In this document: piece by piece, positions 37,620 through 64,000 of the stretch
How positions within the stretch are numbered: position 1 is the first letter of the stretch
Layout: every line of letters begins with the position of its first letter
Origin: Ascidia mentula
Lineage: Eukaryota > Chordata > Ascidiacea > Phlebobranchia > Ascidiidae
Assembly: GCA_947561715.1 (NCBI GenBank)
Contig: OX387200.1
Coordinates: 20,152,501-20,216,500 of the forward strand
Length of the DNA: 64,000 nt
Direction of reading: 5' to 3'
Notes under the pieces: generated by a model
Database searches by the model: none
What the model was told of the DNA's origin: nothing
The model's input: only the letters and a program-made list of their open reading frames with translations
Made by a program: the position numbers and the translations under genes

Positions 37620-40600
37620 ATGAGCTGGAACATGGAGCACTTTTTCGTGATTCTGTTTTTCTTGACATCAAGCTTCAACAGCCTCTGTTTAGCAGGTAAG
37701 TGGTTTCCACCAACACCATATCTTGACTTTACTCCCTGTTAAAAGGAGTATAATTCAAACTTCGCATTGCTTTATTTTATTATTCTCTTTTACTGCAATT
37801 TGAAGCGGTGTTGATTTTAACTCTATTGTACCTGTTTTCCTAATTTGTATGGAAAGGCGATATTGTAGCGCTTGTGTTTTGCCGCTACACAAATGCTACA
37901 GTATACAGAAAAGCCTTTGAAATATTACTTTCATTATGGCTGATAGTGAGATGATGATGAAATTTCAGTGTTTACAAAAAACAGTAAACAAAATACATCA
38001 ATACATGCATAATAAATGAAAATGTCTAGTAAATAATTTTATGAGAAAACGTTAGTCAACAGTTAAATTTCTGTTATACGATACCCAAAACTGAAAGAAC
38101 AAACATACAAATTATTGTCAGGGACAGGATGGTCATTCATATCAAGTATTTTGTTCAAAATGATGTTTATTCATAACATTTAAAATAGGTACAAACTATT
38201 CTAGCTCTTCTAGGTACAAACTATTATCCACAGCGACAAGTGTATTATTTTATAACATTCATACATATAATACATCCTTATACTTCAATACGACCAAAAC
38301 TTAGTCATCTATATACATTGCTATGCACTAATGGTGACTCAGCGATTACGCTCTTTTGTCTTCCAAAATATTGCAGTGCCTCTATCGATGACGAATGTAT
38401 GATGAAACAGCGCCGTTATGTGACCACACTCTTTTCATGACAGCGCACATTAAGTTATAAAGTGCAGTCTATATCGATTGCGTGGGCAGCACTTCGAAAT
38501 AAATCTTAAATTTAATACACCGACAGAAATGAAGACACGACTGGGCGCTATATGAATCCTTACACTTACAAAGACGTAACCCGACCCATATACATGAATG
38601 AAAACCTGATCGGGATTCGAGACCATGCAGGATATCCATGGGTTTAAATCCCAGCGTGGTAAAAATTGAGGCCATTGAAAACATGGAAAAGAAAAAAACA
38701 AGAGGTCACAGATCATGTTATGTCCCCCCCAACCCAAATAATGTGGGTGTAGCCCACATGTCCCCTGCGTCCCCGGAGATCTCAGCCCAAGCACAGGGCC
38801 GACCAGCGATTTCAGCCTAAAGCCATGGAACTGTAACTATTGGAACTTTATCAACTGTTGTATGGTCAATTTAAACGGAAATGAGTGCAGATGTGGATAG
38901 CCACTTGTTTACATCACAAATAGATAAATTAAATAAAGATTAAGCACAAAAATGCGTGTACATTCTGAGCTTATCATTGCAGCAAGCAGTTACAAGGTTT
39001 ATCATGTCTGTAAAATGATCAATTCAGTTAACACACGGCCCACGCCCCTGCAAACATCAAACTTTTAGAACTCAACATTTAGAAGCAGAGGCGTATGGAC
39101 AGCTCAATTTTTTTCGCCCACTTTTATTGGTTTTGCTTTTTGAAACATCGCCCTATGCAATAGAATAAGATATAGCGTTCTTGTTAGGCAAATTATTTCG
39201 CAAACATCCCGTCACAAATTGGACATTTCGGAAAACCCAAACTCCCAAATCTTTAAAAGAAATAATTAAGGGCCTCTGTCTGGTTGTTCAGAAGCATGAT
39301 ATTCGCATGCGGGCCGTTTGTGCGAGGCTACTTCACAATCGGATTTAGCTATTTGCATAAATGTGATTGTGACGTAAAGGATACGTCACATACAAAAGCA
39401 TTACCCGCCCTGGAAGTTAAGGTAACAAACGGTAGTTTTGCGAATCTACAAATTTTGTATTTGCAGGCACCACCGATGTCACATTAACCACAACTGAGTC
39501 GAGCGGAGACACAACAACGAGTAAGTATTTATTCGGGTTACTGCAGCGTTCAAATGGGTTTGCTCAGCTGCTATGACTCAACTAAAGTCTGATTTGCGTG
39601 TTCTTGCTGTAGACCACTAACTGTACTCCGTGAGTAGATTTTAAAATTATTGATTGAAAAACGCGTAGCAAATCAGTTGGCGTGAATTAAATTGTCCAAG
39701 CGCGTTGAGCGACTGAGCAAGTTACGACGAGTAACTACAGTGCACACGTACCTTCAACCATGAAGTGTAGTGATAACGAAATAAATAGCACTTTTGTTGT
39801 TAGTTTCCTCATTTATTTATTATCACGTCGAACGCTTAAATCTTATAATTAGCATACAATGTATAGTTGTCATGCGTCAAGGTTTGCCTTTTAGTGTTCA
39901 AATCGACATCAGGGAGAAAAGAAATGAAGTGCCAAAATATAGGACACATCTTATTTTGTCGGGTTAATGGTAGCGGTGCCAATGTATTACCGACACTTCC
40001 CGCAAGCTGGCACACCATTACAAAAAACGTGTGCATTAGTTTTTTGATAATAGTTTGCAATGGACAAGTAGATATGTGCGGCAGATCAAAAATATTGTTA
40101 CGCCCATTCTGTCCGCAAAAATATTTTTTCCTCTCGATCATGGGATACCAAATCAATGGTTTTAGCGGAAAATTTAAAATTAAGAAATATTTGAGCTCCA
40201 GATGATTGTTGCAAAATGTCATATTAATTCGACTGAACCCATACCAACGGACACATAAAACATCGCGTACCTACAATGGTACTGAGGGTTATCACATATT
40301 TTTTTCATAGGCGTAGCATCTATTTAATGTCACCTACAAATTACAGCAGCTGGGTTTTAAAATATAGTTGGCTTCATTTGTAAGTTTGCAACATGGGTCA
40401 ACCCCTTGGCCAATCGGTTGATATTATTGTTCAAACCATTTTGCATCATAACAGCTACATATGCAAGTGGTATGTTTAACGTTATGTCAACCAACCACCT
40501 CACTTTCTGTACTGTAAAGTTTCTGTATTTTTACAAATTAATAAACGTGCTGTATCAGTCTATATACGTGTACAAGCTAAATTTTATTGATTGGCACTGT

Positions 40601-43600
40601 TTTGTAAAAGACTAACTAAATGAAAGTTTAAATGAAAATGTTACAAATTTTCATTTGCCAATAATTAAAGATATTTTGTTTTTGTCATGAGAACTTTCAA
40701 CTGAAGGTTCTGGTTCAACCACAGAACAAGCTAGTATTGATCCTACATCTTATGGAAATTTTGAGCCTGCAACCACTCCTAAACCTGCTTCTGGTTAGTA
40801 CATAGGCAAATGTCAAATAGCTTTGTGGCAATATTTCTCTGTTTTTTTGTTTCTGATACAAGTGAGAGCCCTAATTTGTCAATTTCCCACGTACAAACTA
40901 CTTCTGTAACACCTGCAAGCACTGGATACACAGGTTGTTACTAGTGCTCCTACATCTTACGCATGCTTTTCATAATTTGACCATTACATGACATGTTTTT
41001 TTACTGCTTTAACAGAGACTTCATCTCCTGAAAGCACTGGATACACAGGTTGTTTATTTGGTGTTAGTATTGATAAAAATGTAGTCAAGTATTTGTTTTT
41101 GTGCAGCAGTTTTTTGAGATTGTGCAATGTAAAATAAGTTGGTTTTCTAGAAAACTGTGGTTGATCATTTTTTAACTAAACATAGTTTTACCAAAGCTTT
41201 GTTCTTCAGCACTTAACTTAAATGAACATTCTGGTTTGAATCTTTTCTAAATCAACTTAACAAATGTTGTGACCTTTTCAAGGAGTGATTTAAGCTTGTA
41301 AATTTGTTTGTCAAAAAAAATCATGATTTACATTTTAGAACATAATATAGCTTTACATTGGGATAGCATTTACAGTAGAATTGCATGTTTCCCCTTGGCC
41401 AATCGGTTGATATTATTGTTCAAACCATTTTGCATCATAACAGCTACATATGCAAGTGGTATGTTTAACGTTATGTCAACCAAACCACCTCACTTACCAA
41501 ATAAAGTTTCTGTATTTTTACAAATTAATAAACGTGCTGTATCAGTCTATATACGTGTACAAGCTAAATTTTATTGATTGGCACTGTTTTGTAAAAGACT
41601 AACTAAATGAAAGTTTAAATGAAAATGTTACAAATTTTCATTTGCCAATAATTAAAGATATTTTGTTTTTGTCAAAAGAACTTTCAACTGAAGGTTCTGG
41701 TTCAACCACAGAACAAGCTAGTATTGATCCTACATCTTATGGAAATTTTGAGTCTGTAACCACTCCTAAACCTGCTTCTGGTTAGTACATAGGCAAATGT
41801 CAAATAGCTTTGTGGCAATATTTCTCTGTTTTTCAGTTTCTGATACAAGTAAGAGCCCTAATTTGACAATTTCCCACGTACAAACTACTTCTGTAACACC
41901 TGCAAGCACTGGATACACAGGTTGCTACTAGTGATCCTACATCTTATGTATGCTTTTCATAATTTGACCATTACATGACATGTTTTTTTACTGCTTTAGC
42001 AGAGACTTCATCTCCTGAAAGCACTGGATACACAGGTTGTTTATTTGGTGTTAGTATTGATAAAAATGTAGTCAAATATTTGTTTTGTTTTTGTGCAGCA
42101 GTTTTTTGAGATTGTGCAATGTAAAATAAGTTGGTTTTCTAGAAAACTGTGGTTGAACATTTTTTTAATAAACATAGATTTACCAAAGCTTTGTTCTTCA
42201 GCACTTAACTTAAATGAACATTCTGGTTTGAATCTTTTCTAAATCAACTTAACAAATGTTGTGACCTTTTCAAGGAGTGATTTAAACTTGTAAATTTGTT
42301 TGTCAAAAAAAATCATGATTTACATTTTAGAACATAATATAGCTTTACATTGGGATAGCATTTACAGTAGAATTGCATGTTTCTGAAGATGCCACCACAC
42401 TGTTTGTTTTTTGTTTAATGGAACATCGTCAATGAAATCTTCTTTGAAATGTTGACCATTTTCCACCACATGTTTTTTTTTATTTTGCAATAAAGTTAGG
42501 TCTAGACATAAAATGGCTTTTCCTTTGTTTCATTTCCATAGTTTTAATAATTTCATTCGTTCATACACATTTTACTTGTAAAACTTTCAACTGAAAGTGC
42601 TGGTTCAACCACAAAACAATCTAGTACTGTGTCTACACCTTATGGAAATTTTGAGTCTACAACATCTGTCAAACTTTTTGCTTCTGGTTAGCATATAAGA
42701 TATTGTCAGAAGAGTTTTATTCATAGTAAACAGTGGTTGACCATTTTACAATGAATATAGACTTACTAAAGCTTTGTACTTCTGTATTTAAACCAAGTAA
42801 ATGTTCTGGTTTGAACCCTTTGTTTAACAACATTAGAAATGTTTGCCACATAAGGGTTACCTGTCATGTTGTGTGCTTACACATCTCTGTATCTTGATCA
42901 CAATGTGCCCATTCCAACTTATGAGATCCGATCAGCAATATGTACTTGTTTTTGTTTGACGTACCTCATCTAATTTGGAGCAGGTGGTAAAGTTTGATGT
43001 ATACTTTGTGTAGAAACTTCTCCATCACATGAAAGCACTGGATACTCAGGTTAGATATGTGCTGTTAATGTGGATGAAGTTGAAATAAATGATCAAAACA
43101 AATATATATACATATCTATTTTATTGATAAGTTACCATGCGGCAATGGTAACTTTTAAGTCCCTACATAAATATGTTAACTATTGATAAGTTACTTTGTA
43201 GAAAGTTTTCATTACCAGTTTGTCCAACAATAAAGAGACCGTAGACATGCTTAAATAATGTCCTCAAAAATTGTTATTCTGCCACTAATTTTCTGTGTAC
43301 AGGTGAAGGATTAACTGCAACTTCTGGTTTAACCACAAAACAATCCACTGATTCTACAACTCATCAAGGTAATTTTGACTCTTTTTCTATAGGTTGGTTA
43401 ATGTCAGGTTTGCTGCATTGCTTGCCTTGTTGCTTTGATGAATCAAACATGTCAACAGCCACATAATCGGCTACATCACAAATTTTTTTTCCGGTTGATT
43501 ATGTTTATCATTCTACAAATGGGTTGACTGTTATATGTGGTTGACTGTTATTTGAGCAGTCTATGAAACTTTCCTGTACTGTAAAGTTCAAATGACTGAT

Positions 43601-46600
43601 ATATAATAAAGTTTTCCTCAAAGTTTTCACTGTGATTACCGAAGTATGACATCTTTTTTGTACACTTCCTAAGGATTGATCAAAAAAATCAGCTGCGATT
43701 TTGCTTTACCGTGCAATAGTGCTTTTTATACGAAAAAACGTTGAAAAACATTTAGTTTATATAGTTTTTTTAAATGTCATGTTGTAGACATTTCTTTTGT
43801 GTGCAATTACTGAAGTTGAACATGCAGTGGTTGATATTTTAGAATTACCTAGATTTTCTAAAGCTTTGTTTTCAGCACTTTAATAAACTGAAAGTTCTGG
43901 TTTGAACCAATTCTGTAACAACACAACAAATGTTTGCCAACTTCTCGAAGAGTAATCACAGACTTTTTATCATAACTTTTTTGATCTTGTTTTCTTTTTT
44001 TTGGAAACCTTTATGAAAAATATAACAAACTAGAATTAACACCTAATATACTATTACAGAAACCAATATTGATTGCAATTCTGGCTTTTCTGGTTTTCGA
44101 ACAAATTGTGAAGATGTAAATGAATGTGAAACCAATCTGGATAATTGCCATCATAATGCAGCATGCAACAACACAGATGGAAGTTTTGTTTGCAATTGCA
44201 ATTCTGGATATACTGGAAATGGAACAAGTTGTGAAGATGTAAATGAATGTGAATCAAATCTGGATAATTGCCACCACAATGCAACATGTAACAACACAGA
44301 TGGAAGTTTTGTTTGCAATTGCAATTCTGGATATACTGGAAATGGAACAAATTGTGAAGATGTAAATGAATGTGAATCAAACCTGCATAATTGCCATCAC
44401 AATGCAACATGTAACAATACAGATGGAAATTTTGTTTGCAATTGCAATACTGGATATACTGGAAATGGAACAAATTGTGAAGATGTAAATGAATGTGAAT
44501 CAAACCTGCATAATTGCCATCACAATGCAACATGTAACAATACAGATGGAAGTTTTGTTTGCAATTGCAATACTGGATATACTGGAAATGGAACAAGTTG
44601 TGAAGATGTAAATGAATGTGAATCAAATCTGGATAATTGCCACCACAATGCAACATGTAACAACACAGATGGAAGTTTTGTTTGCAATTGCAATTCTGGA
44701 TATACTGGAAATGGAACAAATTGTGAAGATGTAAATGAATGTGAATCAAACCTGCATAATTGCCATCACAATGCAACATGTAACAACACAGATGGAAGTT
44801 TTGTTTGCAATTGCAATTCTGGATATACTGGAAATGGAACAAGTTGTGAAGATGTAAATGAATGTGAATCAAATCTGGATAATTGCCATCACAATGCAAC
44901 ATGTAACAACACAGATGGAAGTTTTGTTTGCAATTGCAATTCTGGATATACTGGAAATGGAACAAGTTGTGAAGATGTAAATGAATGTGAATCAAATCTG
45001 GATAATTGCCATCACAATGCAACATGTAACAACACAGATGGAAGTTTTGTTTGCAAGTGCAATTCTGGATATACTGGAAATGGAACAAATTGTGAAGATG
45101 TAAATGAATGTGAATCAAATCTGGATAATTGTCATCACAATGCAACATGTAACAACACAGATGGAAATTTTGTTTGCAATTGCAATACTGGATATACTGG
45201 AAATGGAACAAATTGTGAAGATGTAAATGAATGTGAAACCAATCTGGATAATTGCCATCACAATGCAACATGTAACAACACAGATGGAAGTTTTGTTTGT
45301 AATTGCAATTCTGGATATACTGGAAATGGAACAAATTGTGAAGATGTAAATGAATGTGAATCAAATCTGGATAATTGCCATCACAATGCAACATGTAACA
45401 ACACAGATGGAAGTTTTGTTTGCAATTGCAATTCTGGATATACTGGAAATGGAACAAGTTGTGAAGATGTAAATGAATGTGAATCAAATCTGCATAATTG
45501 CCATCACAATGCAACATGTAACAACACAGATGGAAGTTTTGTTTGCAATTGCAATTCTGGATATACTGGAAATGGAACAAGTTGTGAAGATGTAAATGAA
45601 TGTGAATCAAATCTGGATAATTGCCATCACAATGCAACATGTAACAACACAGATGGAAGTTTTGTTTGCAATTGCAATTCTGGATATACTGGAAATGGAA
45701 CAAATTGTGAAGATGTAAATGAATGTGAATCAAATCTGTATAATTGCCATCACAATGCAACATGTAACAACACAGATGGAAATTTTGTTTGCAATTGCAA
45801 TTCTGGATATACTGGAAATGGAACAAGTTGTGAAGATGTAAATGAATGTGAAACCAATCTGGATAATTGCCATCACAATGCAACATGTAACAACACAGAT
45901 GGAAATTTTGTTTGCAATTGCAATTCTGGATATACTGGAAATGGAACAAGTTGTGAAGATGTAAATGAATGTGAATCAAATCTGGATAATTGCCATCACA
46001 ATGCAACATGTAACAACACAGATGGAAGTTTTGTTTGCAATTGCAATTCTGGATATACTGGAAATGGAACAAGTTGTGAAGATGTAAATGAATGTGAATC
46101 AAATCTGCATAATTGCCATCATAATGCAACATGTAACAACACAGATGGAAGTTTTGTTTGCAATTGCAATTCTGGATATACTGGAAATGGAACAAGTTGT
46201 GAAGATGTAAATGAATGTGAATCAAATCTGGATAATTGCCATCACAATGCAACATGTAACAACACAGATGGAAGTTTTGTTTGCAATTGCAATTCTGGAT
46301 ATACTGGAAATGGAACAAATTGTGAAGATGTAAATGAATGTGAATCAAATCTGGATAATTGTCATCACAATGCAACATGTAACAACACAGATGGAAATTT
46401 TGTTTGCAATTGCAATTCTGGATATACTGGAAATGGAACAAATTGTGAAGATGTAAATGAATGTGAATCAAATCTGTATAATTGCCATCACAATGCAACA
46501 TGTAACAACACAGATGGAAATTTTGTTTGCAATTGCAATTCTGGATATACTGGAAATGGAACAAGTTGTGAAGATGTAAATGAATGTGAAACCAATCTGG

Positions 46601-49600
46601 ATAATTGCCATCACAATGCAACATGTAACAACACAGATGGAAATTTTGTTTGCAATTGCAATTCTGGATATACTGGAAATGGAACAAGTTGTGAAGATGT
46701 AAATGAATGTGAATCAAATCTGCATAATTGCCATCATAATGCAACATGTAACAACACAGATGGAAGTTTTGTTTGCAATTGCAATTCTGGATATACTGGA
46801 AATGGAACAAGTTGTGAAGATGTAAATGAATGTGAATCAAATCTGGATAATTGCCATCACAATGCAACATGTAACAACACAGATGGAAGTTTTGTTTGCA
46901 ATTGCAATTCTGGATATACTGGAAATGGAACAAGTTGTGAAGATGTAAATGAATGTGAATCAAATCTGGATAATTGCCATCACAATGCAACATGTAACAA
47001 CACAGATGGAAGTTTTGTTTGCAATTGCAATTCTGGATATACTGGAAATGGAACAAGTTGTGAAGATGTAAATGAATGTGAATCAAATCTGGATAATTGC
47101 CATCACAATGCAACATGTAACAACACAGATGGAAGTTTTGTTTGCAATTGCAATTCTGGATATACTGGAAATGGAACAAGTTGTGAAGATGTAAATGAAT
47201 GTGAATCAAATCTGGATAATTGCCATCACAATGCAACATGTAACAACACAGATGGAAGTTTTGTTTGCAATTGCAATTCTGGATATACTGGAAATGGAAC
47301 AAGTTGTGAAGATGTAAATGAATGTGAATCAAATCTGGATAATTGCCATCACAATGCAACATGTAACAACACAGATGGAAGTTTTGTTTGCAATTGCAAT
47401 TCTGGATATACTGGAAATGGAACAAATTGTGAAGATGTAAATGAATGTGAATCAAATCTGGATAATTGTCATCACAATGCAACATGTAACAACACAGATG
47501 GAAATTTTGTTTGCAATTGCAATTCTGGATATACTGGAAATGGAACAAATTGTGAAGATGTAAATGAATGTGAATCAAATCTGTATAATTGCCATCACAA
47601 TGCAACATGTAACAACACAGATGGAAATTTTGTTTGCAATTGCAATTCTGGATATACTGGAAATGGAACAAGTTGTGAAGATGTAAATGAATGTGAAACC
47701 AATCTGGATAATTGCCATCACAATGCAACATGTAACAACACAGATGGAAATTTTGTTTGCAATTGCAATTCTGGATATACTGGAAATGGAACAAGTTGTG
47801 AAGATGTAAATGAATGTGAATCAAATCTGCATAATTGCCATCATAATGCAACATGTAACAACACAGATGGAAGTTTTGTTTGCAATTGCAATTCTGGATA
47901 TACTGGAAATGGAACAAGTTGTGAAGATGTAAATGAATGTGAATCAAATCTGGATAATTGCCATCACAATGCAACATGTAACAACACAGATGGAAGTTTT
48001 GTTTGCAATTGCAATTCTGGATATACTGGAAATGGAACAAGTTGTGAAGATGTAAATGAATGTGAATCAAATCTGGATAATTGCCATCACAATGCAACAT
48101 GTAACAACACAGATGGAAGTTTTGTTTGCAAATGCAATTCTGGATATACTGGAAATGGAACAAATTGTGAAGATGTAAATGAATGTGAATCAAATCTGGA
48201 TAATTGTCATCACAATGCAACATGTAACAACACAGATGGAAATTTTGTTTGCAATTGCAATTCTGGATATACTGGAAATGGAACAAATTGTGAAGATGTA
48301 AATGAATGTGAAACCAATCTGGATAATTGCCATCACAATGCAACATGTAACAACACAGATGGAAATTTTGTTTGTAATTGCAATTCTGGATATACTGGAA
48401 ATGGAACAAATTGTGAAGATGTAAATGAATGTGAAACCAATCTGGATAATTGCCATCACAATGCAACATGTAACAACACAGATGGAAGTTTTGTTTGTAA
48501 TTGCAATTCTGGATATACTGGAAATGGAACAAATTGTGAAGATGTAAATGAATGTGAATCAAATCTGGATAATTGCCATCACAATGCAACATGTAACAAC
48601 ACAGATGGAAATTTTGTTTGTAATTGCAATTCTGGATATACTGGAAATGGAACAAATTGTGAAGATGTAAATGAATGTGAAACCAATCTGGATAATTGCC
48701 ATCACAATGCAACATGTAACAACACAGATGGAAGTTTTGTTTGTAATTGCAATTCAGGATATACTGGAAATGGAACAAATTGTGAAGATGTAAATGAATG
48801 TGAATCAAATCTGGATAATTGCCATCACAATGCAACATGTAACAACACAGATGGAAATTTTGTTTGCAATTGCAATTCTGGATATACTGGAAATGGAACA
48901 AGTTGTGAAGATGTAAATGAATGTGAATCAAATCTGCATAATTGTCATCATAATGCAACATGTAACAACACAGATGGAAGTTTTGTTTGCAATTGCAATT
49001 CTGGATATACTGGAAATGGAACAAGTTGTGAAGATGTAAATGAATGTGAATCAAATCTGGATAATTGCCATCACAATGCAACATGTAACAACACAGATGG
49101 AAGTTTTGTTTGCAATTGCAATTCTGGATACACTGGACATGGAACAAGTTGTGAAGATGTAAATGAATGTGAATCAAATCTGGATAATTGCCATCACAAT
49201 GCAACATGTAACAACACAGATGGAAGTTTTGTTTGCAATTGCAATTCTGGATACACTGGAAATGGAACAAGTTGTGAAGATGTAAATGAATGTGAATCAA
49301 ATCTGCATAATTGTCATCACAATGCAACATGTAACAACACAGATGGAAGTTTTGTTTGCAATTGCAATTCTGGATATACTGGAAATGGAACAAGTTGTGA
49401 AGATGTAAATGAATGTGAATCAAATCTGCATAATTGTCATCACAATGCAACATGTAACAACACAGATGGAAGTTTTGTTTGCAATTGCAATTCTGGATAT
49501 ACTGGAAAAGGAACAAGTTGTGAAGACGTAAATGAATGTGAAACCAATCTGGATAATTGCCATCACAATGCAACATGTAACAACACAGATGGAAGTTTTG

Positions 49601-52600
49601 TTTGCAATTGCAATTCTGGATATACTGGAAATGGAACAAATTGTGAAGATGTAAATGAATGTGAATCAAACCTGGATAATTGCCATCACAATGCAACATG
49701 TAACAACACAGATGGAAGTTTTGTTTGCAATTGCAATTCTGGATATACTGGAAATGGAACAAATTGTGAAGATGTAAATGAATGCGAATCAAATCTGGAT
49801 AATTGCCATCACAATGCAACATGTAACAACACAGATGGAAGTTTTGTTTGCAATTGCAATTCTGGATACACTGGAAATGGAACAAGTTGTGAAGATGTAA
49901 ATGAATGTGAAACCAATCTGGATAATTGCCATCACAATGCAACATGTAACAACACAGATGGAAGTTTTGTTTGTAATTGCAATTCTGGATATACTGGAAA
50001 TGGAACAAATTGTGAAGATGTAAATGAATGTGAATCAAATCTGGATAATTGCCATCACAATGCAACATGTAACAACACAGATGGAAATTTTGTTTGCAAT
50101 TGCAATTCTGGATATACTGGAAATGGAACAAGTTGTGAAGATGTAAATGAATGTGAAACCAATCTGGATAATTGCCATCACAATGCAACATGTAACAACA
50201 CAGATGGAAATTTTGTTTGCAAGTGCAATTCTGGATACACTGGAAATGGAACAAGTTGTGAAGATGTAAATGAATGTGAATCAAATCTGGATAATTGCCA
50301 TCACAATGCAACATGTAACAACACAGATGGAAGTTTTGTTTGCAAGTGCAATTCTGGACACACTGGAAATGGAACAAGTTGTGAAGATGTAAATGAATGT
50401 GAATCAAATCTGGATAATTGCCATCACAATGGAACATGTAACAACACAGATGGAAGTTTTGTTTGCAATTGCAATTCTGGATATACTGGAAATGGAACAA
50501 GTTGTGAAGATCTAAATGAATGTGAAACCAATCTGGATAATTGCCATCACAATGCAACATGTAACAACACAGATGGAAGTTTTGTTTGTAATTGCAATTC
50601 TGGATATACTGGAAATGGAACAAGTTGTGAAGATGTAAATGAATGTGAAACCAATCTGGATAATTGCCATCACAATGCAACATGTAACAACACAGATGGA
50701 AGTTTTGTTTGCAATTGCAATTCTGGATACACTGGAAATGGAACAAATTGTGAAGATGTAAATGAATGTGAAACCAATCTGGATAATTGCCATCACAATG
50801 CAACATGTAACAACACAGATGGGAGTTTTGTTTGTAATTGCAATTCTGGATATACTGGAAATGGAACAAGTTGTGAAGATGTAAATGAATGTGAAACCAA
50901 TCTGGATAATTGCCATCACAATGCAACATGTAACAACACAGATGGAAGTTTTGTTTGCAATTGCAATTCTGGATACACTGGAAATGGAACAAGTTGTGAA
51001 GATGTAAATGAATGTAAAACCAATCTGGATAATTGCCATCACAATGCAACATGTAACAACACAGATGGAAGTTTTGTTTGTAATTGCAATTCTGGATATA
51101 CTGGAAATGGAACAAGTTGTGAAGATGTAAATGAATGTGAAACCAATCTGGATAATTGCCATCACAATGCAACATGTAACAACACAGATGGAAGTTTTGT
51201 TTGCAATTGCAATTCTGGATATACTGGAAATGGAACAAGTTGTGAAGATGTTAATGAATGTGCATCAAATCTGGATAATTGTCATCACAATGCAGCATGT
51301 AACAACACAGATGGAAGTTTTGTTTGCAAGTGCAATTCTGGATATACTGGAAATGGAACAAGTTGTGAAGATGTAAATGAATGTGAATCAAATCTGGATA
51401 ATTGCCATCACAATGGTACATGTAACAACACAGATGGAAGTTTTGTTTGCAATTGCAATTCTGGATACACTGGAAATGGAACAAATTGTGAAGATGTAAA
51501 TGAATGTGAATCCAATCTGGATAATTGCCATCACAATGGAACATGTAACAACACAGATGGAAGTTTTATTTGCAATTGCAATTCTGGATATACTGGAAAT
51601 GGAACAAGTTGTGAAGATGTAAATGAATGTGAATCAAATCTGGATAATTGCCACCACAATGCAACATGTAATAACACAGATGGAAGTTTTGTTTGCAATT
51701 GCAATTCTGGATATACTGGAAATGGAACAAGTTGTGAAGATGTAAATGAATGTGCATCAAATCTGGATAATTGTCATCACAATGCAACATGTAACAACAC
51801 AGATGGAAGTTTTGTTTGCAATTGCAATTCTGGATATACTGGAAATGGAACAAATTGTGAAGATGTATATGAATGCGAATCAAATCTGGATAATTGCCAT
51901 CACAATGCAACATGTAACAACACAGATGGAAGTTTTATTTGCAATTGCAATTCTGGATACACTGGACATGGAACAAGTTGTGAAGATGTAAATGAATGTG
52001 AATCAAATCTGGATAATTGCCATCACAATGCAACATGTAACAACACAGATGGAAGTTTTGTTTGCAATTGCAATTCTGGATACACTGGAAATGGAACAAG
52101 TTGTGAAGATGTAAATGAATGTGAATCAAATCTGCATAATTGTCATCACAATGCAACATGTAACAACACAGATGGAAGTTTTTTTTGCAATTGCAATTCT
52201 GGATATACTGGAAATGGAACAAATTGTGAAGATGTAAATGAATGCGAATCAAATCTGGATAATTGCCATCACAATGCAACATGTAACAACACAGATGGAA
52301 GTTTTGTTTGCAATTGCAATTCTGGATATACTGGAAATGGAACAAGTTGTGAAGATGTAAATGAATGTGAATCAAATCTGCATAATTGCCATCATAATGC
52401 AACATGTAACAACACAGATGGAAGTTTTGTTTGCAATTGCAATTGTGGATATACTGGAAATGGAACAAGTTGTGAAGATGTAAATGAATGTGAATCAAAT
52501 CTGGATAATTGCCATCACAATGCAACATGTAACAACACAGATGGAAGTTTTGTTTGCAATTGCAATTCTGGATACACTGGACATGGAACAAATTGTGAAG

Positions 52601-55600
52601 ATGTAAATGAATGTGAATCAAATCTGGATAATTGCCATCACAATGCAACATGTAACAACACAGATGGGAGTTTTGTTTGCAATTGCAATTCTGGATATAC
52701 TGGAAATGGAACAAGTTGTGAAGATGTAAATGAATGTGAAACCAATCTGGATAATTGCCATCACAATGCAACATGTAACAACACAGATGGAAGTTTTGTT
52801 TGCAATTGCAATTCTGGATATACTGGACATGGAACAAGTTGTGAAGATGTAAATGAATGTGAATCAAATCTGGATAATTGCCATCATAATGCAACATGTA
52901 ACAACACAGATGGAAGTTTTGTTTGCAATTGCAATTCTGGATATACTGGAAATGGAACAAGTTGTGAAGATGTAAATGAATGTGAATCAAATCTGGATAA
53001 TTGCCATCACAATGCAACATGTAACAACACAGATGGAAGTTTTGTTTGCAATTGCAATTCTGGATATACTGGACATGGAACAAGTTGTGAAGATGTAAAT
53101 GAATGTGAATCAAATCTGGATAATTGCCATCATAATGCAACATGTAACAACACAGATGGAAGTTTTGTTTGCAATTGCAATTCTGGATATACTGGAAATG
53201 GAACAAGTTGTGAAGATGTAAATGAGTGTGAATCAAATCTGGATAATTGCCATCACAATGGAACATGTAACAACACAGATGGAAGTTTCGTTTGCAAGTG
53301 CAATTCTGGATATACTGGAAATGGAACAAGTTGTGAAGATAAAAATGAATGTGAGTCAAATCTGCATAATTGCCATCATAATGCAGTATGTAACAACACA
53401 GATGGAAGTTTTGTTTGCAATTGCAATTCTGGATATACTGGAAATGGAACCAGTTGTGAAGATGTAAATGAATGTGAATCAAATCTGGATAATTGCCATC
53501 ACAATGCAACATGTAACAACACAGATGGAAGTTTTTTTTGCAATTGCAATTCTGGATATACTGGAAATGGAACAAGTTGTGAAGATGTAAATGAGTGTGA
53601 ATCAAATCTGGATAATTGCCATCACAATGGAACATGTAACAACACAGATGGAAGTTTCGTTTGCAAGTGCAATTCTGGATATACTGGAAATGGAACAAGT
53701 TGTGAAGATAAAAATGAATGTGAGTCAAATCTGCATAATTGCCATCATAATGCAGTATGTAACAACACAGATGGAAGTTTTGTTTGCAATTGCAATTCTG
53801 GATATACTGGAAATGGAACCAGTTGTGAAGATGTAAATGAATGTGAATCAAATCTGGATAATTGCCATCACAATGCAGCATGTAACAACACAGATGGAAG
53901 TTTTTTTTGCAATTGCAATTCTGGATACACTGGAAATGGAACAAATTGTGAAGATGTAAATGAATGTGAATCAAATCTGGATAATTGCCATCACAATGCA
54001 ACATGTAACAACACAGATGGAAGTTTTGCTTGTCATTGCAATTCTGGATTCACTGGAAATGGAACAGGTTGTAATGATGTTGTTGAATGTGACTTTGATG
54101 TGCACTATTGCCATGAAAATGCAACGTGTACAAATACGGTTGGAAGTTTTTTGTGCAACTGCGTGAAAGGTTTTTCTGGCAATGGAATGTCATGTGTGGA
54201 TGTAAACGAATGTCTTTTAGATGTGGACAACTGTCATAGTAAGTCATTGTGTCATAATACAATCGGAAATTTTGTATGTGAATGTTCATCGGGATATAGT
54301 GGAAATGGCACCACTTGTTATGATGTTGACGAGTGTGCACTAAACACGTACAAGTGTGTCAATAATTCCCATTGTACAAACACCGTTGGAAGTTACTCGT
54401 GTGATTGCAATCATGGATATACTAAGATGGGGAAAAACTGTTCGGACATCGATGAGTGCGTACAGTACACCGACAACTGCCATCGTCACGCTTTGTGTAC
54501 AAACGTGATCGGAACTTTTCTGTGCTCTTGCTCAAATGGTTATTCTGGCAATGGGACGGTATGCGATGATATTGACGAGTGTGAGGATAGCCGTATTAAC
54601 AACTGCAGTACAAACGCTTTGTGCAAGAATGAAATTGGGAGCTACGAATGTAAGTGCAACATAGGTTATACTGGCTCCGGAATTACTTGTAATGATGTAA
54701 ATGAATGTTTGTCTTCTCATAACTGCCATGCACCAGCTTCCTGTTACAACACCAATGGCAGTTTTCAGTGTCTTTGTGATCGCGGCTTTTCGGCAAACGG
54801 AACTCATTGCATTGATTTAAACGAGTGCGAACTGGGTTCACATAACTGTGCAACTACCGCCACGTGCACCAACACCTTCGGTCATTTTACATGTGCTTGC
54901 AACGTTGGTTATGTAGGTGATGGAAAAACCTGTTCCGATGTAAATGAATGCACAAGTGGAAGGGCTACGTGCGATCGCAACGCTTACTGCACAAATACAG
55001 TGGGTAGTTATAGGTGCACGTGCAACAATAACTATCAGGGAAGCGGCAAGACATGTCAAGATGTAGATGAATGTGGCAGAGGAACACACACTTGTCATCC
55101 CGATGCGATTTGTACCAACCTTCCAGGTTCACACAGCTGCAAATGTAAAGATGGCTTTAATGGGAACGGGTTAAATTGCGTTGATGTCGATGAATGCTTG
55201 GTATCAAACCCGTGTCCGTCCCACACAACGTGCAACAACATTCCAGGTTCCCATCAATGCCTCTGCACTGATTTAGGCTTCGAAAGCGATGGCACGAAGT
55301 GTGTGAATGCAGACGAGTGTGCTCGTAAAACCCACAAGTGTCACGAGCAAGCCAAGTGCACTGATACTTTCGGAAGCTACACATGCTCTTGCAACGTCGG
55401 TTACTTTGGCGACGGTTTTAATTGCGCTGATCGTGACGAATGTTCAGAGGACAAACCTTGTCATGCCAATGGGGAATGCAGTAACACTGCTGGTAGTTTT
55501 GAATGTAAATGTCGTAATGGGTTTCAGGGAAATGGCTTCGTTTGCACGGATGTTGACGAGTGTTCCTTGGGAACCCACAACTGCCACTCCCTTCACGGGG

Positions 55601-58600
55601 TGTGTGTTAATCAAGTAGGGACGTTTCAATGCAGATGTGACCTTGGGTTTGCTGGAAACGGTATAAATTGTGTAGGTAGGTGACAAATGCACCGATTTGT
55701 AATAAATACTCGAGGCTCAGACTTCTTTTGTTAGATATTGACGAGTGTAACGAAAACACGGACAAATGTGATGAAAACGCTAAATGTGCGAACACTGTCG
55801 GAAGTTACACATGCACATGCAACCAAGGGTATGAAGGCAATGGAAGAGTATGCAAAAGTAAAACAAAATAACGATTTTTTTGGTTGAAACCGGGATAATG
55901 GTTTACAAATTTTACTGTTTTTAGGGTTGTATCTTCACGAATTTTCGCAAAACTTCACCACCACTGCTTCAACAAAAGAAAATGAGGTTACAGAGAACCT
56001 CAAAGGAAATCTCTTGCAAGCATTTCAATACAACAACAATGACGTCAGAAGAGTTTTTATCCGGAATGTTAACACTGACACTAAAGTAGTGAGGTATAAA
56101 CTATAGAAAAAAGTAATCTTTTTATTTATTTATTTAGTTTTTTGTTTGTGCTTTTAGGTACCAGGTTCAGTTTTACAATGGATTCAAGCAACCCTCTGTT
56201 TTTGTGGACATATTTTTACGATATAGGAAGGCAAAACCAAGCATAGGTAATCTATTGCTGGAACTTCCGAGAACAGGTTTGGCCTTGATGCAGGTGAAAC
56301 TAAATAACGTTAAGGTTACCTTACACAATCTGTTTCAGCTTCTTGTCAAAGCGGCAAAGTCAGTACCTTCATGTTTCGCGAAGTTGGCGTAAATAAGTTG
56401 AGCTACTCTGTGGAAGTCTGCCCCAAAGGTTTCTAAAAACTTCATTTTTCCCCGCTGATGGCTTAAAACTCGCCAAACCACTTTCTTCAGGTTACTCACA
56501 AGCATCCGTTCGATGTGTCCCAACAGAGAGCTTTGGGCCAAATGGTGAACTACACTCAACGAGGTTTGATGAATCAAGTTTGTCCTCAATCAAATGCGAG
56601 GTGGAGATCAAAGATATTAAGGTCACCGTTTTGTTTGTAACCAAAATGTTGCTGCATTTTGCTTAAATTAAAAATTTGTTTTTTAGATTAACAAAACGGA
56701 TATCACACAAAAGGGCGTCGAGAAAGTGGCAAGTTCACTTCAGATTGTCACTTCCGGGTCAAAGTTGAAAGAAGAGGAAGTGCAGGAATCGCTGGAGGTT
56801 GTAGATTCCATCGGTCAAGCTGTTGAAGAAGGCAAAGTGGAGGTCGAGATTTTTTATGTGTTGTATATACTAGATTCCTGAGACTCCAAAAGGTATATAC
56901 TTGTTAGTTGTATGTAATAATTGGCATTCTTTGCTTAAAGGTTACGGAAGCACTTTTGGTCAATGTTGTCGCAGCTACTTCGCATCTAACAGAATCTCTC
57001 GAGGCATTTTCCGCTCCTGTGGATAATGCAAATAATAACAACAACAATAATAATAATAACAACAACAACAACAACAACAATAATAATAATAACAACAACA
57101 ACACCGATGGCACACCACCTAAGACCGTAAAGGATAAAAAGAACGAAACTGCGATTAAGCAGAAGATTGTTCATTCACTGAGTGTTCTTGCTCATAAAAT
57201 TGTCTTGGAAAATACAACTTCACCGGTTCTAGAAATTAAAACGGAATCCATTACAATACGCGTAAGAAACAAGCAAATGCTAAGAATGTTTTTGAGAAGT
57301 ACAGCTGTAAGTTTGGACTCGATAACCTGGGGTGAAAACTAACATTATTTCTAAGTAAGATTTGAAATTCTTTTCGGGCTGCGCCTCCTATGACGGCATA
57401 AATGAAACCTTTTTGTGAGAGGGAATAATGTCAATTTATTTCCAAGAAACATTTAATATCGCAACTAAAATTTAAAAGTTTTTTAAAAAAACGTAGCAAC
57501 ACAACTAAAATGGCAATTTAGCCGAGTAAACTTTTACGAAAAGAGTATTTTCAAAAGTTGCAATGATTCACGTGGATAGTTGCTACGTTTTGAAAATACT
57601 AGAAACTTTTTACAGGTCACAGAACAAGCAGAAGATGCAGCTCCTACTGATGTGTGGTTTGCACCAGAAGGTGAAGCAAGCCTGGAAAAACAAAGCGTTG
57701 TTCCTGTCAATATATCAGTTCCAAGTTCGGTTATATCTGAAGCATGGAAAAACACGAACGGGTCTAAGTTGAGAACTGTATTCTTTCTTCATGAGGGAGA
57801 TTCCTTGTTTCCATCGGATAAGGATGTTGATTTTGTATGTTTGTTGTATTTTATTAGTGGAGTTAGCAAAACAAGCCCAGTTATTCTTCTATTACTTTTA
57901 AGGTTGTTACAGTAGAGGTTGGCGATGGAACAAAACTTGTAAATTTACAGCCACCAGTTTCAATAGAACATGCAAACGAACCTTCTCGATATGGCGAGAA
58001 AAACGGATCGACGGGATTTATGGTTGGTGTTTGTTGGAAATTCACTGCACAAGTAACGTATTCCTTTGTCAGGTGAAAAAAGTTCGACAACGGTGTGCAT
58101 ACTGGGATTTCGATGAGGTTAATTGGAAGACGGACGGTTGTTGTCTAGACAACACGGAGCATCCACCAGTCTGCAAATGCAATCATTTGACCAACTTTGC
58201 CCTTTTAGTGGTAGGCCTATGGCGTTTAGTTTTAATATTTGGACGATTGTTTGTCTCACACTCCTTTGTACAGTCTACAGATGAAGTTCCCGAGGACGTT
58301 GTGCTATCGACCATCAGTGATATAGGATGTGCGCTCTCGTTGTGTGGATTCATTGCAACTGTTATTCTCCACGTTGTCAATAAGTAAGTTGTTATGTAAT
58401 GAGTAGAAGTAGCAGCGGAAGGATTTCTTTTAACATTTTTATTACAAGGGAACACCTGAAGAAAGTTCCACATCAAATTCAGCTTCACGTTTGCGTCAAT
58501 CTCTTTGTCGCTTACTTAGTTTTCCTTTTCGGCATCTCCCGAGTTAATCAACCTGATTCATGCACAGCCGCCGCTGCTCTGATGCAATATACGTTTCTTA

Positions 58601-59750
58601 CAAGCTGGATGTGGATGGCAGTTTACAGCAACAAACTCTATACTGCACTCGTTAAAGTATACTTCTAGTCTATCTGTTTTGTCATTTTTCTGTTCTAAAT
58701 AAGCAGCCCTGTGTTTAGGTGTTCACGGTAGCCAGTAATAACTACATGAAAAAGGCCTGTGTGATTGCGTACGGTGTTCCATTGATTGCAGTAGGTTTAA
58801 ATGTCGGACTTGCGGTCGGGTATTTTGATAAACAAATGAGCAACGAAGACGTTTGTGTGCAAAGTAAGTTCTGTCTATGTAACTGCCATACACGAATTTG
58901 CGTGACGTGAACACACGTAATTGTTTCGTCATCACGCAGGTGATCCACGATTTCTTCCATCAAGTTACCGAGCCGAGAACATGTGCTGGCTTGACGGATA
59001 TTCACTTTACTTTGGATTTTTGCTCATAATTGGATTGGTTTTGATCCATAATATTGTAATTCTCACGCAAGTTTTGCGAAAGGCTATATTTAAACGGACA
59101 AAGGTAAACGTGTACGTGTTCTGTTTCAACGAATTGATCACAAATGCGCACGCCAGAAAGAGTCGAATTTAGTGACACGATTTTCATAAACCTTCTATTT
59201 GTGATAGGATTTATGAGTTATAAGTTTACTTTTAAAGTAATTTTGTGACAAAATTATATTTTAGATTCAATCGACCGTGAAAAAAGATAAAATCAATCAG
59301 ATAATATTGGCTCTCTCACTTGCATTTTCCCTCGGTCTGACCTGGATTTTCGGGTTTCTCATGTTGTTGTCAACTGATCCAACTTACAACCAAGTGATGA
59401 ACTGGCTCTTTGCTCTTTTCAACTCTTTCCAGGTTCAAAACAGAATTTAAAATCCTTTGCGCGTATTTTAACTCCCACCAAGTTATAGTTGTAGGTGTTT
59501 GAAGGTAAAACTGATACACAACTTGTTGTTGCAGGGTGTGATTGTGTTTTACATTACTTGCGTAAAAAGGAGTGACATGCTGAAATTCTGGTGGCCCCCG
59601 ATCAGAAATCGCTTTTGGGGACTCAGAAGAACTGTTGATGAAGCTGTGGGGAGGGAGCCAACAGCTTATTCCTTGTCAGCTGCCACAAGGTCTACTGCAC
59701 AAGGATCAAGCATCAATCAAGTCTATTCTACTGCTGAATACTTAAATTAG
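37620..59750 (+). CDS. giant EGF-repeat adhesion G-protein-coupled receptor
   Basis: A surface receptor of the adhesion GPCR class with a very long extracellular EGF rod. Coding exons: 37620-37695 (signal peptide, hydrophobic core FFVILFFLTSS), 39467-39520, 40692-40793, 41016-41048, 41679-41780, 41837-41920, 42003-42035, 43014-43049, 43303-43368 (Ser/Thr-rich stalk, all phase 1-1), 44060-55675 (EGF array), 55735-55857 (EGF), 55925-56093, 56158-56246, 56339-56428, 56491-56621, 56687-56842, 56941-57306, 57616-57834, 57903-58022, 58073-58210 (GPS), 58274-58383, 58449-58656, 58719-58863, 58940-59103, 59265-59432, 59535-59750. The total is 14,814 nt, an exact multiple of three, about 4,937 residues. 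EGF arrays with GAIN and GPS mark the class; the subgroup (E, G or other) is not resolved. The exon ending at 56246 could instead end at 56276 in the same phase. Which stalk exons are joined is uncertain. Ligand and tissue are unknown. AATAAA at 60090-60095 may end the mRNA. Confidence 0.88.
40403..42381 (+). repeat. tandem duplication of about 990 bp covering stalk exons
   Basis: Two nearly identical units adjoin: about 40403-41392 and 41393-42381. Each starts CCTTGGCCAATCGG and ends TTTACAGTAGAATTGCATGTTT. Each carries one 102-nt exon (40692-40793 and 41679-41780), one 84-nt exon (40850-40933 and 41837-41920) and one 33-nt exon (41016-41048 and 42003-42035), all phase 1-1, so duplication lengthens the stalk without a frameshift. 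The 84-nt exon in unit 1 has lost its acceptor AG. A diverged third version of the 102-nt exon follows at 42582-42686 with AA in place of AG. Confidence 0.9.
40850..40933 (+). pseudogene. stalk exon with lost splice acceptor
   Basis: Homologue of the functional-looking exon 41837-41920, with an open frame (VSDTSESPNLSISHVQTTSV in one-letter code) and an intact donor. In this unit the acceptor reads TTTTTTTG, where the second unit reads TTTTTCAG. The exon should be skipped; skipping keeps phase. Confidence 0.7.
42582..42686 (+). pseudogene. diverged stalk exon lacking an acceptor AG
   Basis: Similar to 40692-40793 (LSTESAGSTTKQSSTVSTPY against LSTEGSGSTTEQASIDPTSY) with an intact GTTAGC donor, but AG is replaced by AA just before the exon (42580-42581). 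Phase would still be 1-1. It may be dead, or use an upstream acceptor I did not find. Confidence 0.55.
44060..55675 (+). other. single 11.6-kb exon encoding 94 EGF domains
   Basis: From the acceptor CTATTACAG at 44059 to the donor G|GTAGGT at 55675 the frame is open for 3,872 codons. It begins with a half EGF (DCNSGFSGFRTNC), then 81 near-identical units (44110-54072), then 13 diverged units. The start and end phases are both 1, so the exon can be skipped without a frameshift. Most units read D-V-N-E-C and then six conserved cysteines, with C-N-N-T-D-G-S-F-V-C matching the Asn/Asp beta-hydroxylation pattern C-x-N-x4-F-x-C. Calcium-binding EGF domains of this kind form stiff rods (known for fibrillin and Notch). 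Confidence 0.93.
44110..54072 (+). repeat. 81-unit tandem array of a 123-bp EGF unit
   Basis: Counting from the GAAGATGTAAATGAA codons at 44110 to the equivalent at 54073 gives 9,963 bp, exactly 81 times 123, so there is no net indel. Units differ mainly at a few positions: GAATCA or GAAACC after the NEC codons; CTGGAT, CTGCAT or CTGTAT; AGT or AAT in GSF/GNF; AGT or AAT in NGTSC/NGTNC. Synonymous sites are also nearly identical, so the units are recent copies or are homogenised. Some variants recur at fixed offsets (see findings). Assembly length of such an array is uncertain. Confidence 0.95.
54073..55857 (+). other. 14 diverged calcium-binding EGF domains after the array
   Basis: Thirteen EGF units in the end of the large exon, plus one in the exon 55735-55857, each with six cysteines and mostly a D-x-D/N-E-C start (for example DVDECALNTYKC, DIDECVQYTDNC, DVNECTSGRATC, DIDECNENTDKC). 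Unlike the array, these differ from each other along their whole length and in codon choice, as in a normal old EGF gene. They are the likely ancestral part from which one unit was amplified. Confidence 0.92.
55925..56428 (+). other. SEA-like module of the adhesion GPCR
   Basis: Encoded over three exons after the last EGF. The peptide has the alternating pattern of SEA modules: an opening FSQNFTT, a helix around NLKGNLLQAF, a strand VRRVFIRNV, then RYQVQFYNG and VFVDIFLRYR. SEA modules often self-cleave or mediate adhesion; I see no clear GSVVV-like cleavage site. The assignment is by pattern, so moderate. The following part (CQSGKVSTFMFREVG to VEVCPKG) may be a separate small Cys-containing module. 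Confidence 0.5.
56491..58210 (+). other. GAIN domain with GPS autoproteolysis site
   Basis: Six exons encode the helical and strand parts of a GAIN fold, ending in a canonical GPS: CAYWDF, then GCCLDNTEHPPVCKCNHLTNFALLV. Cleavage is expected between L and T of CNHL/TNFALLV, leaving TNFALLV as the tethered agonist. The four GPS cysteines and both tryptophans are present. A 50-nt intron (58023-58072, GTTGGT...TTGTCAG) is needed to join the exon before the GPS in frame. The exon 56941-57306 contains a run of 24 asparagines (57031-57102). Confidence 0.88.
57031..57102 (+). repeat. poly-asparagine codon run (24 Asn)
   Basis: Twenty-four consecutive AAT and AAC codons, mixed in blocks, between APVDNA and TDGTPP in the helical part of the GAIN domain. 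The mixed codons show the run is not a pure trinucleotide slip, yet it is likely length-variable. It probably forms a disordered loop. Confidence 0.95.
58274..59750 (+). other. seven-helix domain and C-tail of the adhesion GPCR
   Basis: Six exons encode seven hydrophobic segments in the class B2 pattern: ISDIGCALSLCGFIATVIL (helix 1), LHVCVNLFVAYLVFLFGI (2), ALMQYTFLTSWMWMAVYS (3), ACVIAYGVPLIAVGLNVG (4), LYFGFLLIIGLVLIHN (5), LALSLAFSLGLTWIFGFL (6) and VMNWLFALFNSFQGVIVFYI (7). The helix 3 Cys (PDSC) pairs with that in loop 2 (ENMCWLD). The tail is short (about 50 residues) and ends EYLN. Confidence 0.9.
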
Positions 59751-60874
59751 GGTAACCGGTTTACAATGCATTCGTTTATCGGTTAACACAAATATATATT
59801 TCTGAGTTACATATCGCCTTATAAAAATACCAGATAATCTAAGTCACTTCGAATGTTCTCTTTGGTACTGTAGTTATCCCGTTAGTTGTATATAAATGTC
59901 AACACATGGCGATTGTAAAGTTTATTGGGTTATGGGTATACAGTATGGCGAATTATGTTAAGTACTGTACTTTCATCACTTCAAAAAAGACGCTCTCTAT
60001 CTAAGTCTGGGGGTTTTCCATAACCTCAAAATATCGGTTCGGCACGCGGTAGTTGATGTTCACGGTTGACTGGACTCTTCCAACCATCAAATAAATAACA
60101 AACTTTGAACCGAAAGCATGAATACTTCTGCTTGTGAAAATCGCCCATCTGGCAATAATGCTGCTGCTGTTTAATTCTATGTTGATATATTATCGTATGT
60201 ATATTTATGTTGGTATATTATCGATTTGCTGTGTTTATTTGTCAGCCTACATGGAAGCAGGCACATAAAAAAAATTTCCGTGATCAATTAAAGGAGGAGA
60301 ATCATACGTTAGGGAGTAAATTCCTATTGTGGATTTTTCTGAGTTACTTTGCCAGTTTTCATTTGCTCCTCACTTGGATTTTCTGAATCAGTGGAGCCTG
60401 AACCGTGTGTTACTGCAGCGCATTCCTGTCTGTCATGTGGTGAACAAAACGCACTTAGGCGAGACCACGGCTAAAATTTCCCACCCGGCGGCATATTTCT
60501 TTTGAAAACCGACGAAAAGGGGGCTGCGACTAATTTTCTTCGAAAGGGGTACACCAAGGAAACAAAGTTTGAGAAACACTTTAAAGTTTGTCAATATTTC
60601 AAAAGATAAAACGTGGTTTTGGATAGTTTTGGTGTTCAAGAAGGACATATTATGCGACGACGTGTGGTAACCCCAAACAACACATAGGCTACCAAGGTCC
60701 TGGGCAAAACCTTGCTAGTCTTGGAAAAAGGCACGCGCAGATTATGGAATGAAATGTGAAACAAATAGTCACTTGTGGCAAATGCATTGTTAGGAAGCGG
60801 CAAACACGTGACAAATAGGACACTGTTCAAAAGAGCATAAGTCGGTGACAGCCAGTGTTAAAATGATTACATTT
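59751..60874. other. spacer between convergent adhesion GPCR and transporter D
   Basis: No gene is seen. AATAAA at 60090-60095 is the likely poly(A) signal of the adhesion GPCR. Around 60490-60590, GGGTACACC, GTTTGAGAAACACT and neighbouring bases resemble the right end of an hAT-like element, but no partner end is found. Confidence 0.4.
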
Positions 60875-63800: not shown

Positions 63801-64000
63801 TCTTCGAGAAAAATTTTCTAGAAAACATTCTGTCGAAAAACGATTTAAAACTTACCGCAGTTATCGCCGACTTTTCAGGTCCTTCGAACCAGTATGACTT
63901 ACACGGAATAACTGATGCATTTTCCGGACCTAAATGTTTAAAATAAACTTAGAAGTTGAAGATGGTTGGGTAACTTTCGTTTTGCATTTTTCGCATCCTT
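60875..64000 (-). CDS. SLC22-like organic ion transporter, copy D (5' end beyond window)
   Basis: Minus-strand paralogue; exons 1-2 lie outside the window. Exons 3 to 11: 63929-63856, 63712-63609, 63389-63235, 62856-62688, 62429-62208, 62004-61790, 61662-61480, 61336-61198, 60980-60875, with the same lengths and phases as A for exons 3-10. Motifs: FGLVCDRDWLKPYF, MYGRKPVFLVFTFW, DESPRWLLVSKNE, HTLEIFPTKTRQSILF and ETGDSPLPQTVEEAKSLEG. The exon 11 tail (SWKRCWYRIFG) matches that of A (SWRRCWHKLAG) rather than B or C (IWKQYWDKLFN). Intron 2 text at 63950-64000 matches intron 2 of A near 10810-10880. All nine exons are open and all splice sites are GT-AG, so the gene looks intact as far as it is seen. 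It converges with the adhesion GPCR. Confidence 0.88.

Follow-up and report, generated by a model that had tools for sequence, protein, structure and literature searches.

The 81-unit array and its exon

Why does a single exon of a predicted receptor gene in the ascidian Ascidia mentula encode 81 nearly identical epidermal growth factor (EGF) units? The units lie in a window of 64,000 nucleotides (contig OX387200.1, positions 20,152,501 to 20,216,500 of the forward strand; positions without a contig label are those of the window), in a gene at 44–60 kb that is predicted to encode an adhesion G-protein-coupled receptor (GPCR) with 95 EGF domains. The explanation we favour, with moderate confidence, is that the 81 calcium-binding-type units, all within one exon of 11,616 bp, belong to a stalk that is likely stiffened by calcium and would carry tension to the switch formed by the GPCR proteolysis site (GPS) and the tethered agonist.

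The array consists of 9,963 bp, or 81 head-to-tail units of 123 bp with no net indel. This count, first made in a sequence-only reading of the stretch, was confirmed by Tandem Repeats Finder (TRF), which reports a single array (44072–54162, period 123, 82.0 copies, 96% matches, 0% indels, score 18453), and by cutting the units from position 44110. All 81 are 41 aa long, stop-free and have all six cysteines, with no frameshift. The mean pairwise identity is 96.28%, and 56 of the 81 units are distinct. The calcium motif is found in 80 units and the one-residue linker between domains in all 81. The forward open frame spans the whole array (44047–55680, 3,878 codons), in agreement with the intronless 11.6-kb exon of the same reading. 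The 13 diverged EGFs on the 3′ side of the array are older than the near-identical units. An antisense frame is also open over the repeat (44057–51250, minus strand, 2,398 codons) and is likely a by-product of the unit composition. The features of the exon are as follows.

44060..55675, + strand: predicted array exon, 11,616 bp, with an AG acceptor before 44060 (phase 1) and a GT donor after 55675 (open reading frame)
44110..54072, + strand: 81 near-identical 123-bp calcium-binding-type EGF units (TRF, translation, motif count)
54073..55675, + strand: 13 diverged EGF domains inside the array exon (translation; Pfam EGF_CA, E 7.4e-120 over 54001–55680)

Gene model of the predicted receptor

The array exon and 16 further predicted exons can be joined in frame as far as the stop codon, and their borders in the model are GT-AG. 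One implausible 20-bp intron was replaced by eye with a 50-bp intron, which kept the frame; lengths and borders were checked. The predicted protein has about 4,740 residues, the missing 5′ end not included, and its 95 EGFs (81 + 13 + 1) agree with the pattern count, which is also 95. The features downstream of the array exon, including the seven-transmembrane (7TM) domain, are listed below.

55735..55857, + strand: 14th unique EGF, on its own 123-bp exon, phase 1-1 (gene model; 95 EGFs by pattern count)
55925..58022, + strand: eight predicted exons (55925–56093, 56158–56246, 56339–56428, 56491–56621, 56687–56842, 56941–57306, 57616–57834 and 57903–58022), membrane-proximal part that precedes the GPS, taken as GAIN from its position (gene model, last donor by eye with the 50-bp rather than the 20-bp intron; 49% identical to Phallusia P0121 over 96% of the C-terminal query)
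56941..57306, + strand: among these eight, the exon in which (AAC/AAT)n encodes 24 consecutive asparagines (TRF, gene model)
58073..58210, + strand: GPS exon, CNHLTNFALLV (PF01825, E 4.7e-11, cut-off passed)
58274..59750, + strand: six predicted exons (58274–58383, 58449–58656, 58719–58863, 58940–59103, 59265–59432 and 59535–59750, the last with the stop), 7TM domain and short tail (PF00002, E 2.8e-29, profile 4–250 of 250)

The GPS and 7tm_2 matches downstream on the same strand, together with the long modular N-terminus, predict an adhesion GPCR, as the sequence-only reading had proposed. We take CNHLTNFALLV to contain the predicted cleavage position, between HL and T, and the start of the tethered agonist. 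The Pfam GAIN model has no match in the spliced model, and a structure model of a relative was poor. The (AAC/AAT)n run itself (57037–57103) is N-terminal to the GPS and carries an exact duplication of 33 bp. One further feature lies directly upstream of the array exon.

40692..43382, + strand: Ser/Thr-rich, mini-exon-like cassettes, with copies near 40692, 41679, 42582 and 43313 (direct repeats D3/D4, translation, splice reading by eye)

These cassettes are spaced by 987, 903 and 724 bp in a tandem stretch (40402–43382) that is in part 98–100% identical. Several read as phase 1-1 exons, and at least one copy is without an acceptor AG (by eye). They are possibly a mucin-like N-terminal segment of the receptor, for which we list them as candidates.

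Other giant EGF arrays in the genome

The genome (195.8 Mb, 79 contigs; the 81-unit array is on contig C67) was searched with EGF- or 7TM-based queries. On contig C2 (12711142–12743271), an array of 384-bp exon-plus-intron units in 83.4 copies contains 85 EGF exons, with AG acceptors at all 85 and donors that are GT in 83 and GC in two. The exons are 123 bp each and read as phase 1-1, so that they could be skipped in frame; a stop is present in none of the 84 tested. GPS and 7tm_2 matches are located just downstream, and the locus is predicted to encode another adhesion GPCR, whose giant EGF array is built from a different kind of DNA unit.

On contig C69 (2556204–2568542), an open frame of 4,113 codons holds 97 regular 123-bp EGF units that are 95.05% identical; the DNA identity to the 81-unit array is 66%. 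Fibronectin-III-like and EGF sequence lies downstream, where about 8 kb yielded neither a GPS nor a 7TM match, and the gene was rejected as a third receptor. Its tail resembles Ciona LOC144745535 (nine EGFs by pattern), a possible relative. Between the consensus units of the arrays on C67, C2 and C69, only 22–24 of 41 residues are shared, so that none of the three arrays was recently copied from another, and the expansions look independent.

A DNA search with three units of the 81-unit array found three more EGF-array stretches on the minus strand of C69 (2458108–2462778, 2474150–2478579 and 2490228–2497788), which have 67–73% DNA identity to those units and matches about 240 bp apart. On contig C70, a tandem array of six 952-bp copies carries pairs of EGF matches (10719981–10725624). 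A cluster on C67 (15970001–16020000) comprises six adhesion-GPCR-like 7TM regions in tandem, two of which have 18 and 10 EGF matches upstream; a 610-bp duplication is located inside it.

Amplification or homogenisation of the units, and selection

The longest exact internal block of the 81-unit array is 902 nt at a lag of nine units, and another measures 565 nt at a lag of one; the C69 array has blocks of 915 and 888 nt, both at a lag of 15. These exact blocks suggest that several units at a time were duplicated recently. The recent amplification or homogenisation that had been read from the near-identity of the units is thus supported by the mean identity and by the 902-nt block. Within the 81-unit array, divergence is higher in the 3′ half (5.42 differences per pair) than in the 5′ half (3.47).

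Selection was assessed by comparing the observed variants of each array with random single changes to the consensus, with p-values that treat variants as independent. The 81-unit array has 20 synonymous changes in 47 variants (expected 10.7, p 0.0024), no cysteine loss (expected 5.7, p 0.0014) and 27 non-synonymous changes, giving an omega-like ratio of 0.42. Stop variants are absent (expected 1.6), which is not significant (p 0.19). In the C2 array, 24 of the 64 variants are synonymous (expected 15.4, p 0.0098) and cysteine losses are 0 against 8.0 expected. The C69 array shows 17 synonymous variants in 55 (expected 12.3, p 0.088). It has likewise lost no cysteine (p 0.0008), a value to be read with the caveat that intact cysteines were the stopping rule when its units were collected. 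The introns of C2 provide a neutral control within the repeat; the diversity of its exons (0.070) is about half that of these introns (0.130).

Given the retention of cysteines, the synonymous excess in two of the three arrays and the lower diversity of C2 exons, purifying selection acts on the units. The tests say nothing about length, for which selection is plausible. Selection had also been claimed from the open frame in every copy, and here only the conclusion stands: cysteines and synonymous sites bear it out, but an open frame does not by itself imply selection, since the antisense frame is open as well and the deficit of stops is not significant.

Relatives of the receptor

Protein searches covered lengths of about 295–938, 469–1,491 and 1,213–3,860 residues; a relative longer than 3,860 residues would be missed. 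For the C-terminal part, the closest among the matches listed is Phallusia mammillata ‘probable GPR128’ (P0121), with 49% identity over 96% of the query. The search at about 1,213–3,860 residues gave, among the matches listed, two Ciona records of one gene and mammalian ADGRG4. The relatives that rank highest, Phallusia and then Ciona, fit an ascidian source. In the literature covered, and with protein searches that reached 3,860 residues, no earlier description of so large an EGF array in a GPCR came up.

Four paralogues are located on C67, and 30–40 kb was fetched around each. The one at 19.63 Mb has six sushi matches and no EGF match, that at 21.879 Mb has seven EGF matches across about 5.7 kb, that at 21.892 Mb has no EGF match, and that at 7.22 Mb has 13 EGF matches in one open frame and one downstream. 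A 7TM tree of 17 sequences (332 columns, of which two C2 sequences span only 240 and 151) splits the 81-unit gene, these four paralogues and Phallusia from the other 11 with a support of 0.978. The only two ADGRE sequences used fall among those 11, which places the 81-unit gene apart from the vertebrate ADGRE clade. As the paralogues (0–14 EGF matches), Phallusia and Ciona are without such an array, the 81-unit expansion is confined to a single branch of those examined.

A proposed tension-bearing stalk and its alternatives

For the stalk to act as we propose, the exons, which join in one predicted frame, would be spliced into one mRNA connecting the array to the GPS and 7TM domain, and the GPS would undergo autoproteolysis. 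At about 3 nm per domain, the stalk could measure up to about 285 nm if fully extended, and it would sense force by carrying tension to the GPS/tethered-agonist switch. Arrays of 95 and 85 EGFs would both form calcium-stiffened stalks, about a quarter of a micrometre in length. The array was likely lengthened by unequal exchange that involved one to several units at a time, each unit being under purifying selection. With two other giant arrays in the genome, one of which was amplified as an exon-plus-intron cassette in another predicted adhesion GPCR, expansion seems to have recurred, and a possible reason is that long stalks are favoured.

The main rival, which we consider possible although doubtful, is mutational drive. 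The genome would be prone to tandem duplication, calcium-binding EGF modules would tolerate any copy number, and length would drift while selection only purges units that misfold. This explanation fits the occurrence of arrays in genes that are unrelated and that differ in DNA unit (123 and 384 bp), the six-copy EGF-pair array on C70, the duplicated cassette (about 987 bp) directly upstream of the array exon and the 610-bp duplication in the 16-Mb cluster of C67. Purifying selection on the units fits it equally. The similar totals of the two receptor arrays (95 and 85 EGFs) are not predicted by drift, but two arrays are few. That the arrays found are EGF arrays reflects ascertainment, given the queries used. 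Further giant arrays strengthen the case that length may matter, but equally that for mutational drive.

A role as an identity tag is improbable. In this reading, the array would be polymorphic, with unit number and residues differing among individuals, and a partner would read it as in ascidian egg-coat recognition. The precedent is Halocynthia HrVC70, which has 12 EGF repeats, is polymorphic and is a candidate self/nonself sperm receptor, with HrTTSP-1 on sperm having 23 EGFs (PMC9265791). Non-synonymous variants present in at least four units are located at unit positions 8, 11, 17, 18, 25, 29, 37 and 40. However, non-synonymous changes are below the neutral expectation, contrary to what diversifying selection would give. 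No ZP domain was matched in 54001–55680, in the three + frames of 55600–64000 or in the spliced model, and a ZP egg-coat protein of the HrVC70 type was ruled out.

An artefact, in which the assembly has the wrong unit number or the array exon is outside the receptor transcript, is very improbable even with a single assembly, as the window contains no N characters, most units are distinct, the two halves differ in divergence, the longest exact internal repeat is shorter than long reads, no unit is frameshifted, and acceptor, donor and phases link the array exon to the following EGF exon and on to the GPS.

The tension-bearing stalk remains our preferred explanation. An extension of it, which is speculative and in our judgement rather unlikely, is that EGF-TM7-like adhesion GPCRs have been turned into length-tuned sensors of reach. 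At least two genes of different 7TM clades would have independently grown stalks of 85–95 EGFs, in one gene as a fixed array of 123-bp units without introns, in the other as 85 symmetric exons that could each be skipped. The sushi-domain sister receptors would be candidate partners, echoing CD97 (EGF) and CD55 (sushi). If this is true, the length of the stalk can evolve quickly, through unequal exchange in one gene and possibly through splicing in the other. How adhesion GPCRs sense force is under active study, and the influence of stalk length is difficult to examine, since the EGF-bearing receptors that have been studied well are short. The genes examined here form a natural length series (0, 7, 14, 85 and 95 EGFs) in which reach could be tested against activation. 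The arrays also show clearly how concerted evolution proceeds when the protein is constrained, with one module, different DNA units and, in one array, introns as a built-in neutral control. The main interest is the recurrence in a second predicted receptor of the same genome by means of a different DNA unit.

Comparison with known systems

The ADGRE or EGF-TM7 receptors (CD97/ADGRE5 and EMR1–4) likewise have tandem calcium-binding EGFs followed by a GPS and 7tm_2, and the EGFs of the 81-unit gene align with the solved EGFs of EMR2 and CD97. They differ in the 7TM domain: that of the 81-unit gene shares 28.7% identity with bat EMR1 and falls together with tunicate paralogues. CD97 is described with three to five EGFs (PMC8191316, PMC13197933), as compared to 95 here. 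The CD97–CD55 pair is proposed to bear tensile force (PMC8191316).

An E1-like adhesion GPCR of the soft coral Dendronephthya (P0122) has an EGF array before 7tm_2. Several of its units are near-identical, but it has 11 EGFs by pattern count and is 24% identical over 94% of the query; smaller EGF arrays in adhesion GPCRs therefore exist elsewhere. Phallusia P0121 and Ciona LOC100184723 (P0229), which belong with the 81-unit gene to one tunicate group of adhesion GPCRs, share a homologous GPS-7TM region (7TM identity of 65.2% and 48.1%, respectively) and differ in having sushi domains and no EGF-pattern match, the Phallusia record being perhaps cut at the N-terminus (by eye). In ADGRV1 (VLGR1), the rod is made of Calx-beta repeats, not EGFs. 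It resembles the 81-unit gene in its very long ectodomain and is called the largest adhesion GPCR (PMC13197933).

Drosophila Dumpy is reported to have more than 300 EGF repeats and concerted evolution in one region; it is a matrix protein with EGF-DPY-EGF units and a ZP domain, and not a GPCR. The Halocynthia proteins are also ascidian EGF-repeat surface proteins (12 and 23 EGFs), but HrVC70 is a ZP egg-coat protein and HrTTSP-1 a type II transmembrane protease, both without 7TM. In Ciona, two of 24 unclassified adhesion GPCR models are reported to have EGF repeats (PMC2396169). The stalk itself can be compared with a fibrillin-like calcium-binding EGF rod, with which it shares the calcium motif and the one-residue linker in consecutive domains.

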